A stretch of DNA of 50,669 nucleotides, from positions 1-50,669 of the forward strand of contig JAPHSW010000059.1 of NCBI GenBank assembly GCA_026196615.1, written 5' to 3'. Made by a program: the position numbers and the translations under genes. The first letter of the stretch is position 1; every line of letters begins with the position of its first letter. Source of the stretch: Gammaproteobacteria bacterium (GTDB lineage: Bacteria; Pseudomonadota; Gammaproteobacteria; GRL18). Positions 36,481 to 38,928 of the stretch are shown piece by piece. Under the pieces are notes generated by a model that saw only the letters and a list, made by a program, of their open reading frames with translations, was not told the DNA's origin and searched no databases.

Positions 36481-36614
36481 GCATAAAACATTTTTATTTC
36501 ACCCTATTCATGATCAATTTCATTTGAATTACCTGTAATTAGCGATTAAGGTGCGTCTGGGTTAAAATACGGTCTTCTTTTTAGTAGTTATGAGACAGAA
36601 GTAAGGAATGCTGT

Positions 36615-37277
36615 ATGAGTAAACCATTGGATCAAAAATCCTCTAATAACGATGAAGTCGCTTATCCACCACCTCAACGTGTCAGCTTTGCTGAGCATGA
36701 ACAGCGCTTGCCATGGCTCAGTATCTTAATGGACGCCTATTTGATTACTGATCAGGGAATCAGTGAATCTATTAAACGAGAAGAAAAACAAGGTAAAAAA
36801 CTGGCTTGTGCTAGAGGTTGTGCCACTTGTTGCAAGTCGCATGAAACGATTCCTGTATACCCTTTAGAATTAATGGGCATGTCATGGTATGTGATTGAAG
36901 TCATTGAAGGTGAATTGCGTGAGAAATTGAAGGCTCAATTAAGAAATCTTGAGTCACTGCAGTCCTGTCCTTTTTTGATTGATAATGCCTGTTCATTGCA
37001 TGCTGTTCGACCTATGGCCTGCCGTAGTTTTAATGTGTTTAATAAGCAATGTATTGATGGTGAAGATGCATACTATACTCGACGTGATGATGTGTTAACT
37101 CCAATACAGAAATACAATGATGATGCATTTGATGTGATGTTACCTTTTTATGGAATTAAAAATAAAGCAGAACGCCGCAAGATGATCAAAACGGGTGGAA
37201 TGCATCAGATGGCAAAAGTTATGCGAGACCTAAACTGGTCATCTTTGCCTGATAAAATGGATGCGTTTGAGAAATAA
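36615..37277 (+). CDS. YkgJ family cysteine-cluster protein
   Basis: 220 residues. The Cys motif CARGCATCCKSH together with CPFLIDNACSLH and RPMACRSF fits the YkgJ (CxxxCxxCC) zinc- or iron-chelating family. Function is unknown; a metal centre is likely. The ribosome site is AAGGAATGC before the ATG. Stands alone, followed by two structured repeats. Confidence 0.88.
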   Translation: MSKPLDQKSSNNDEVAYPPPQRVSFAEHEQRLPWLSILMDAYLITDQGISESIKREEKQGKKLACARGCATCCKSHETIPVYPLELMGMSWYVIEVIEGELREKLKAQLRNLESLQSCPFLIDNACSLHAVRPMACRSFNVFNKQCIDGEDAYYTRRDDVLTPIQKYNDDAFDVMLPFYGIKNKAERRKMIKTGGMHQMAKVMRDLNWSSLPDKMDAFEK

Positions 37278-37312
37278 GTTAAGGTGATGTTCGAAAGTGG
37301 TGCTTTTAAGTC

Positions 37313-37434
37313 AGAGAGTGGTATGGTGTCCTTGACCTGACAGGGGACGCTCCAAGCACGTCCATGTGTCGCTTATCCTCGGCATCCATGCCTCGAAATA
37401 CCTCTGTCAAGCCAAGGACACCATACCACCCTCT
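37313..37434 (+). repeat. structured hairpin repeat, copy 1
   Basis: The outer arms 37313-37334 and 37413-37434 pair over 22 bp with one mismatch (ends at GTGTCCTTG/CAAGGACAC), and pairing goes on through TGACAG. Inside is a 51-base core (37348-37398) with two small hairpins, each of five pairs around CC: CACGTCCATGTG (37357-37368) and GGCATCCATGCC (37381-37392). The core matches copy 2 in the opposite orientation at 44 of 51 positions. It lies between YkgJ and copy 2. A reading frame through it (37364-37561) is not a gene. Confidence 0.88.
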
Positions 37435-37568
37435 TAATAGAATCACGTTTCTCACTGGAGGTAGAAGAGCAAAGCAAAAGAAAAATCAACAGCAAGATTA
37501 TTCGAAATTAGGCTTTGTTTTTTCTTATCTTTTGATTTTCCCCTCACTAGTGAAGGAATGACGTAGAA

Positions 37569-37683
37569 GTGATTTGAAGTACTGTGGTAGTTTAAGGGGC
37601 TTTCGAGCCATGGATGGCGAGGTTGAGCGACACACGGATGTGCTTGAAGCGCCCCCCTAAACTACCACAGTACTCCAAAGCAC
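37569..37683 (-). repeat. structured hairpin repeat, copy 2 (opposite orientation)
   Basis: The outer arms 37569-37594 and 37658-37683 pair over 26 bp with two mismatches and have no sequence in common with the arms of copy 1. The core (37601-37651, read on the minus strand) contains the two hairpins CACATCCGTGTG and GCCATCCATGGC. Compared with copy 1 the pair G-C in the second hairpin has become C-G on both sides, a compensatory change. It ends 27 bases from the stop of the next gene, on the minus strand. Confidence 0.88.
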
Positions 37684-37710
37684 GTTTTAAATACCACAAT
37701 TCCTGAACGA

Positions 37711-38868
37711 TCAATCCCAGTATTCTGTCTTAATCGGATTACCTAAATCCGCATCAATAAGACGTTGCCTGACTTCTAATAGCTTCTCAATTAATGCCGG
37801 TTCTGTTTTTTCATAAGACTCTGCATCAGGCACCCGTCGTACTACAACACCTAATAATTCCGTGATGGCATTACCAATCGAATTTTGGCTAATTGTCACA
37901 ATCAATTTGCCTTGTTCATTACGATAAATCAGTTGCTTGAAGGCGGGCTGCCAACGAATGGAGTTGGCATATTTTGCATCATGCACACACATGTCGCGTA
38001 CTTTTTTGGCGCTGGCTAAAAAGTCATTATCAAACAGTAAAGTATTTTCAATTTGATCGGGGAAATATGTCTTTGGTGGAATAGGAGCATTTCGTGTTGA
38101 AACCTGACTGAAAAAGGTGCGATAGAAATCCAGAAAGCCTTTGAGGATCAAATCATATTCTTTCCAGAAATGGGTACTTTTTAGCATATCAACACCACCC
38201 TGGATTTCCCAACTAGGTAAACCCTGAGGATAGCCTGTTAGAGAGAGCTGTGAAGCTTTTCCTTCAATAGGTTTTAGGATCTGTAGGTCAAGCGACTCAA
38301 AGAAAGTACGATAGACATGGCGCATATGGGCCTGAAACAAACTGTTTTGGCCTCCATCTGTCAAATTAGGATTTTTAGGATCGGCATTTTCTGCATTTCG
38401 CAATTGATCCATATTAAATACAATAAAGTGATTGTGTAGCATACGAATGCTGGGTACACCAGGAGCGGTTAAAGGCCAGGTGGCATCCAGACTGGCTTCA
38501 CCTGCTAAAACTAATGCATCATTCGGATCAGGGTATTTTTCCAGCATGTACTCAATCATGATTTGGTTCATCCGATTCCAAACGGTTTTGGTTTGTTCCG
38601 GAAGCTGTGTTCGGCGTACAGGACGGCCTAAAGGATTAAGAATACACTCAGAGGAATTAAAGATAATAGAGGTATCAAATTCATTACTATGACCTAATGC
38701 TTTTCGATACATTAGGAGGTGTTCAGGGTTTTGGAGCAGGCCGTTATTTTGAGTGAGATCCTGAAGATTTTCAGTACTATTAAAAAACTCGTTGGGCTTC
38801 ATGCCCTCTGGCACATCCAGGGGAATAGGACGAAATGGGGTAATGATCTCTTTTGGGCCTGACTTCAT
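37711..38868 (-). CDS. unrecognised 385-residue cytosolic protein
   Basis: No signal peptide or membrane segment. I do not recognise the family. Features: proline-rich start (ITPFRPIPLDVPEGMKP), a His pair in IRMLHNHFIVFNMDQL, the segment LTGYPQGLPSWEIQGG, aromatic-rich FWKEYDLILKGFLDFYRTFF, and a C-terminal helix with LLEVRQRLIDADLG. The HNH stretch recalls HIT-like or radical metal sites, but there is not enough for a call. It is well formed, of normal base use, so probably a real conserved enzyme. Upstream, an inverted repeat at 38896-38928 may control it. Confidence 0.75.
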   Translation of the reverse strand: MKSGPKEIITPFRPIPLDVPEGMKPNEFFNSTENLQDLTQNNGLLQNPEHLLMYRKALGHSNEFDTSIIFNSSECILNPLGRPVRRTQLPEQTKTVWNRMNQIMIEYMLEKYPDPNDALVLAGEASLDATWPLTAPGVPSIRMLHNHFIVFNMDQLRNAENADPKNPNLTDGGQNSLFQAHMRHVYRTFFESLDLQILKPIEGKASQLSLTGYPQGLPSWEIQGGVDMLKSTHFWKEYDLILKGFLDFYRTFFSQVSTRNAPIPPKTYFPDQIENTLLFDNDFLASAKKVRDMCVHDAKYANSIRWQPAFKQLIYRNEQGKLIVTISQNSIGNAITELLGVVVRRVPDAESYEKTEPALIEKLLEVRQRLIDADLGNPIKTEYWD

Positions 38869-38895
38869 GCGTTTTCCTTGAACAAATTATGGAAC

Positions 38896-38928
38896 AGACA
38901 TATTAACATTTTCTTATTTAATATGTCT
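38896..38928. promoter_or_regulatory. inverted repeat upstream of the unrecognised gene
   Basis: AGACATATTA at 38896-38905 is exactly complementary to TAATATGTCT at 38919-38928, with 13 bases between. It lies 28 bases before the start of the gene on the minus strand, a good place for an operator. It could also end the cheV transcript. Confidence 0.4.

Follow-up and report, generated by a model that had tools for sequence, protein, structure and literature searches.

An inverted-pair unit at about 37290–37709 of the window, that is, the whole stretch of 50,669 nucleotides analysed here, consists of two structured elements. The element is neither an artefact nor categorically new: it is a divergent, paired, mobile form of a known, unexplained RNA family, TwoAYGGAY (RF01731). 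The best reading, to which we give a probability of roughly 0.55, is that it represents a mobile, 3′-end-associated RNA with two CsrA-binding sites that belongs to this family. The function of TwoAYGGAY has been unexplained since 2010, and the link to mobile inverted repeats, together with the strand assignment and the head-to-head pairs with their CsrA-like loops, makes it testable. New here are the -+ pairing of the elements, a 183-bp mobile relative, the concentration between convergent genes, the assignment of the GGA strand by mismatch bias and the CsrA-like loops. In short, the unit reads as a predicted transposable CsrA site.

The unit is placed between two convergent stop codons, 13 nt after one and 1 nt before the other, and its limits are based on the sequence and on three relatives that lack the element. 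The left neighbour gene (36615–37277, plus strand) was recognised by an ORF call and a Pfam match as a CxxCxxCC domain protein (PF03692); the right one (37711–38868, minus strand) is an ORF call of 385 aa without a Pfam match. The 385-aa protein is present in 13 of 16 genomes of the genus, the own genome included, with 85–100% identity. Element 1 occupies 37313–37434 with its GGA strand on the minus strand, and element 2 occupies 37569–37683 with its GGA strand on the plus strand. Each comprises an outer stem, hairpin 2 and hairpin 1, and the covariance model R1, built from 70 elements, scores them at 109.7 and 102.7 bits, respectively. The outer stem of element 1 is formed by 37313–37346 with 37401–37434 (34 nt, 88% complementary), that of element 2 by 37569–37599 with 37653–37683 (31 nt, 90% complementary). 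The conserved cores, each defined by its identity to the other, lie at 37343–37398 (minus) and 37601–37656 (plus); when 37343–37398 (+) is compared with 37601–37656 (−), 48 of 56 positions are identical. On the GGA strand, hairpin 1 of element 1 (37357–37368, minus) displays the loop C[ATGGAC]G, as judged by position, pairing and loop conservation. By position and the pairing in the alignment, hairpin 2 of the same element (37381–37392, minus) carries C[ATGGAT]G, and in element 2 the plus-strand hairpins 2 (37607–37618) and 1 (37631–37642) carry C[ATGGAT]G and C[ACGGAT]G, respectively. Possible distal stems were seen by eye, in the flanks of at least many of the copies listed, between 37440–37455 (5′ side) and 37290–37303 for element 1 (minus), and, among the copies listed, between 37555–37563 (5′ side) and 37695–37709 for element 2 (plus). 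An A+T-rich spacer (37456–37554) separates the two elements.

The first-pass annotation of this DNA had described two elements in opposite orientation, and they are indeed inverted copies of one structured element. Its hand count of 44 identities in 51 core positions was reproduced exactly in the best ungapped 51-nt stretch, and the base-pair swap that it claimed in one hairpin was found as well (GGC/GCC to GCC/GGC). It placed the elements correctly; the limits of the unit turned out to be wider than it gave, reaching about 37290–37709. Its outer stems are near-palindromic, as it held, and those of the two window elements, aligned side by side, have no obvious shared sequence. Its further claim that they have no common sequence does not survive a comparison over 70 copies, in which the median identity is 0.58 vs. 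0.50 for shuffled arms; the stems are slightly more alike than shuffled arms, i.e., fast-changing rather than wholly unrelated. Single-strand folding gives a z value of −7.8 for copy 1, while for copy 2 it is −9.2 on one strand and −9.5 on the other, and none of 200 shuffles folds equally well for any strand tested. Three alternatives had been offered for the nature of the element. The mobile palindromic repeat and the structured RNA, the latter as Rfam TwoAYGGAY, both hold, and the tRNA-like one was rejected, ARAGORN finding 0 genes in 37000–38000; a DNA hairpin read by a protein, also among the proposals, is less likely. A protein-coding reading was also rejected, there being no ORF of 80 aa or more across the window copies; short ORFs (60–78 aa) that overlap copies at other loci were judged mechanical. 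An origin from a plasmid or phage was discarded as well: blastn with 36600–38900 returned no plasmid match, and the core returned no phage match. The core itself has one weak 31-nt match to a Xanthomonas plasmid, and its pattern gave no match in viral contigs.

A scan of the window against Rfam at gathering scores was empty. In a relaxed scan, RF01731 covers both elements on their GGA strands over the full model (positions 1–168 of 168), at 37300–37448 (minus) with 37.6 bits and at 37562–37690 (plus) with 38.1 bits, short of the gathering score of 43. Names of miRNAs in the relaxed scan were taken as chance matches to long hairpins. Copies exceeding the cut-off occur in the own genome and in the genus: L076 reaches 49.1 and L101 43.9 bits (two matches in 20 loci), G000:C4 44.8 and G006 47.7. 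Of 369 genomes of the class, 24 contain RF01731, 16 of them above the cut-off, vs. 0 of 14 control genomes. Judging by these matches, the window elements are divergent relatives of TwoAYGGAY, below the curated cut-off. With this family (clan CL00106; PMC2864571) they share the long outer stem, two AYGGAY-like hairpins, a full-length match and the right strands, and all four window hairpins have loops of the AYGGAY type. They differ in that the window copies score under the cut-off, that element loops may also be AGGGAY, AGGAC and others, and that head-to-head pairs and carriage in mobile units are absent from the available parts of the family descriptions. As far as the accessible text of PMC2864571 (2010) goes, TwoAYGGAY is listed as probably RNA and probably not cis-regulatory, from the human gut, gammaproteobacteria and Clostridiales. 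In the corresponding part of PMC4333381 it is matched to a model of the CsrA site, from which CsrA binding was predicted; two tandem G.A pairs are noted there, and validation is described as being under way. That of PMC11661157 calls the motif relatively unexplored. Repeats, pairs or mobility are not mentioned in the accessible portions of the TwoAYGGAY literature (e.g., PMC2864571, PMC4333381, PMC11661157). Similarly, no such element is described in the accessible part of the literature that connects CsrA or RsmA with repeats, MITEs, palindromes or sponges, a part that covers few of the subscription journals.

For the comparison of copies, 112 distinct sequences were limited to those with complete flanks and a sufficient score (100 remain) and then to less than 90% mutual identity, which gave 90 elements. 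Seventy of the 90 were aligned by sequence alone; the 20 elements left out, from 17 loci, were truncated, chimeric or badly paired, so that the selection favours good pairing. On this alignment RNAalifold yields 36 pairs, of which 30 vary on both sides. The proposal in the first-pass annotation that structure is kept through compensatory change is thus borne out, and with 26 model matches in the own genome the element is neither solitary nor devoid of covariation. Standard pairs fill 94.4% of the cells, vs. 64.7% after shuffling and 37–44% with the partners slid; the covariation score is 0.743 vs. 0.180 and 0.10–0.12, respectively. In the small hairpins the stem pairs vary, and the closing C-G pair is retained in 69 of 70 and in 70 of 70 rows. 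The A and the GGA of the loops are retained in all rows except one, which has a different letter in place of the second G of one loop. Across the copies the loop takes either the form C[ANGGAN]G or the shorter C[AGGAN]G. A pair of C[A(N)GGAN]G hairpins is present in 79 of the 90 elements, a count biased by the loci L050–L102, which were fetched by a pattern requiring TCC in both loops, and in 39 of the 46 elements from loci found without the loop pattern (L001–L049), which are free of this bias. GAG/CGAG beside hairpin 2, a possible counterpart of the tandem G.A pairs, was found in 70 of 90 elements by a loose pattern, and some of the others have standard pairs. AGCG words are also nearly invariant among the elements. 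In two loci (L019, about 1471–1574, and L022, about 1300–1700) a further stem, about 24 bp long (GCCTCGTGGTACCTACTTTGGG and variants), lies between the outer stem and the core; it looks as if another palindromic element had been inserted into the element or extended it. Words similar to this stem were seen in L024, L070, L071 and L090 too.

The strand that carries the information, overlooked by the first-pass annotation, is the complement of the one it had read, and its loops hold the nearly invariant GGA. Read on the TCC strand, the outer-stem mismatches of the 90 elements comprise 136 A.C vs. 32 G.T, and these 136 A.C correspond to G.U on the GGA strand. Element by element, 59 of 90 lean toward the GGA strand, 6 the opposite way and 25 are tied; the elements are related, and a formal p value would overstate the case. 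From this bias the GGA strand is identified as the one folding alone, whether as RNA or as single-stranded DNA. Since the two halves of a pair point in opposite directions, the bias is not a leading/lagging-strand effect.

The element is widespread among relatives. A BLAST search with the core gives 15 matches at E ≤ 1 in the own genome and finds matches in 15 of 57 relatives, the own genome included, from two genera of one family. At E ≤ 0.001, R1 detects copies in 22 of the 57 genomes, at least 26 in the own genome and up to at least 64 elsewhere, these counts being lower bounds obtained by scoring the best candidates of each genome. An R1 search of four genomes gave 27, 25, 49 and 108 copies. 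A pattern search over named genomes returned 53 stretches, mostly from gammaproteobacterial MAGs; the carriers include Taylorina and Lucinoma symbionts and a record titled Thiohalomonas sp. Two outliers are records titled Lysobacterales and Holophagaceae. The former (L067, 1349–1463) has a 67-bit R1 match, apparently within a coding region, and the latter (L062) matches the pattern and not R1. A recurring neighbour gene was dismissed as an explanation, because the 118 ORFs next to elements fall into 100 clusters, the largest of which has three members from apparently orthologous loci.

Several comparisons bear on mobility. At the window junction, the relatives L109, L112 and L118 have the two genes 4–12 nt apart and the element is absent; in L108 and L110 another short sequence, not matched by R1, is found there, and L111 carries different elements at this position. 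In L109 an element lies on the other side of the gene. At junctions shared between species, the median identity of the 5′ arms is 0.54 vs. 0.58 for random pairs (eight comparisons, one possibly of different sides). The genome G009 contains a 183-bp unit with the RNA core and inverted ends ACCTGARYTCTGGATAA, which occur there 127 times (with up to two mismatches) vs. once in the reversed control. Ten of the 15 copies fetched from G009 fit these ends, and four have different ends. Target duplications of 6 bp (TANNTA-like) are exact in 8 of the 10, vs. 4 of 90 mismatched flanks; the remaining copies have one duplication matching at 5 of 6 positions and one 7-bp duplication seen by eye. The ends and duplications point to recent movement of the 183-bp element. 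In the same genome, L153, L155, L156 and L164 form a second single-element group with other ends (TAGGTACTTAAG...), and some ACCTGARYTCTGGATAA ends enclose units of about 82 bp, which leave no room for the RNA. In G012, pair units of about 540 bp at three places are 96% identical and have the common ends ACTACCNTAGCGGTAATT, with 20 occurrences vs. 3 in the control and one match in the own genome; consistent target duplications were not found for these G012 pair units. The window unit has neither ACCTGARYTCTGGATAA nor ACTACCNTAGCGGTAATT ends and no recognised transposon ends or target duplications. At L010 (G000:C208), the unit is flanked to the left and right by inverted copies of a stretch of about 44 bp, which may be either longer transposon ends or an assembly fold-back. 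The G009 copies resemble MITEs in being short, non-coding and multi-copy, with inverted ends and target duplications, and differ from them in that a covarying RNA-like core is common to units with different ends and in that no parent transposon was noticed. Like REP sequences and BIMEs, the elements are palindromic, intergenic and arranged in inverted pairs; however, at about 120 nt with two inner hairpins they exceed the 20–40 bp given in the accessible part of PMC3733652.

Such mobility raises the main rival to the RNA reading, a single-stranded DNA transposition signal, in which a transposase or nuclease recognises DNA hairpins, as happens in REP or IS200/IS605 systems, and the RNA annotation misreads mobile DNA. 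The multiple copies, the inverted pairs and the recent movement agree with it, and the strand bias suits G.T-tolerant single-stranded DNA equally. Yet the loop letters are kept, and C[A(N)GGAN]G with its optional N contains the very letters of a CsrA site. Moreover, outside the stem the moving unit of G009 is bounded by inverted ends and 6-bp duplications of its own, so that ordinary end recognition would suffice, and RF01731 is described as RNA in the available text of PMC2864571. We consider a DNA-level signal unlikely, albeit the strongest of the competitors.

The arrangement of copies speaks to the 3′-end association of the proposed CsrA-binding RNA. Applied to 91 loci, R1 delimits 76 unique units with 111 elements. 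There are 35 two-element clusters: 33 have the order -+, with the GGA strands outward, and the other two are -- and ++. Six -+ pairs less than 400 nt apart were also found in two other families (G180 twice, G290 twice, G383 and G109), so pairing is not confined to the genus of the window; a third family has one ++ pair (G113). In L126, L130 and L134, from other gammaproteobacterial families, an RF01731 pair is nested in a larger palindrome, the outer arms of which carry TTTTCTTGCTTGTCCAAGAAAA-type hairpins. By ORF calls rather than annotation, the 38 units with both neighbours called comprise 22 convergent, 14 tandem and 2 divergent contexts, vs. 17, 120 and 37, respectively, among 174 element-free gene pairs of the same loci (Fisher test, 6e-10 for convergent and 0.02 for divergent). 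The distance from stop codon to model edge is 30–46 nt in 28 of 81 cases. A T4 run within 30 nt 3′ of the modelled stem occurs in 47 of 99 cases on the GGA strand vs. 15 of 99 on the other strand. Among recent copies, 2 of 11 in G009 and, for the pair units of G012 and G004, 5 of 13 lie between convergent genes, a count based on 31 of 38 fetched stretches. As these copies have little convergent bias, the excess of convergent genes may reflect survival. Where a lone element sits in a tandem gene pair, its GGA strand runs against the genes six times and along them twice, the opposite of what simple read-through would give.

The excess of convergent contexts (22 of 38), the stop-to-edge distances and the T-run bias would also be expected of a bidirectional 3′-end structure that has no protein partner, its stems blocking exonucleases or aiding termination between convergent genes. 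This explanation leaves the kept loop letters beside changing stem letters without a cause; a pattern search found no standard intrinsic terminator at the window copies, and the little convergent bias among recent copies tells against it as well, which together make it improbable. Mutation bias, whereby template switching in near-palindromes copies arm onto arm and pairing persists without selection on RNA, would account for stems that differ freely and stay paired even between species at one junction, but it predicts neither the one-strand bias to G.U over A.C nor kept loops next to changing stem pairs, and unlike stems at one junction may stem from independent insertions, so that we regard it as very improbable.

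The reading as a CsrA-binding RNA draws on the loops. The consensus of a CsrA site is A(N)GGA in paired hairpin loops, and hairpin loops of this type, in pairs, are what the elements contain. The accessible parts of PMC4333381 and PMC4383904 likewise give this consensus for CsrA binding. The nearly invariant C[A(N)GGAN]G loops fit such a site, and binding is predicted. Several GGA hairpin loops, and the sequestering of CsrA proposed for the element, are features in common with CsrB, RsmY and RsmZ. In contrast to one multi-site sRNA gene, the element has two sites each in many dispersed copies, and no clear sigma-70 promoter was identified in or near the unit (one site found, 0.8 expected).

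We assume that, on the GGA strand, the long stem would display the two small hairpins with their C[A(N)GGAN]G loops, which would suit the pair of RNA-binding faces that one CsrA dimer has. A mobile inverted-repeat unit of the MITE type would combine two of these modules back to back, with their 5′ sides turned inward. Transcription coming from either of the convergent genes would then yield an RNA that contains the first element as TCC strand and the second as GGA strand, and that ends in the second, with a two-site CsrA clamp as its 3′ end. Even with cores that form inverted repeats, each module could fold by itself, as the outer stems differ. Units may have spread to many sites, mostly behind stop codons and above all between convergent genes, so that both convergent mRNAs would gain a structured CsrA-binding 3′ end, and dozens of copies, summed, could act as a distributed CsrA sponge. 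If CsrA does bind, the effective dose of a global regulator would depend on the copy number of a mobile element. A more far-reaching idea, which we put forward tentatively and hold to be doubtful, is that TwoAYGGAY is the payload of selfish mobile elements: one and the same two-site CsrA clamp would travel with several sets of transposon ends, every insertion downstream of a stop codon would supply another CsrA decoy, and in a genome with up to about 100 copies a part of global post-transcriptional regulation would be set by transposition. The CsrA reading has most difficulty with the AGCG words, for which CsrA does not account, with the way lone elements are oriented and with the finding that recent copies are only weakly biased toward convergent genes.

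The gene for the putative partner protein is present in most carriers. Of 57 relatives, 50 have csrA, as do 23 of another 25 genomes that carry the element; because it is common anyway (50 of 57), its presence lends weak support to the CsrA reading. It was not found in G015 (64 copies, 81% complete) or G031 (2 copies, 75% complete). In the own genome, csrA (L150 1076–1273) encodes a product of 65 aa and follows an ORF which we take to be an aspartate kinase gene. A second CsrA-domain protein of the own genome, with 122 aa and a long C-terminal extension, is encoded at L151 691–1059 (G000:C252).
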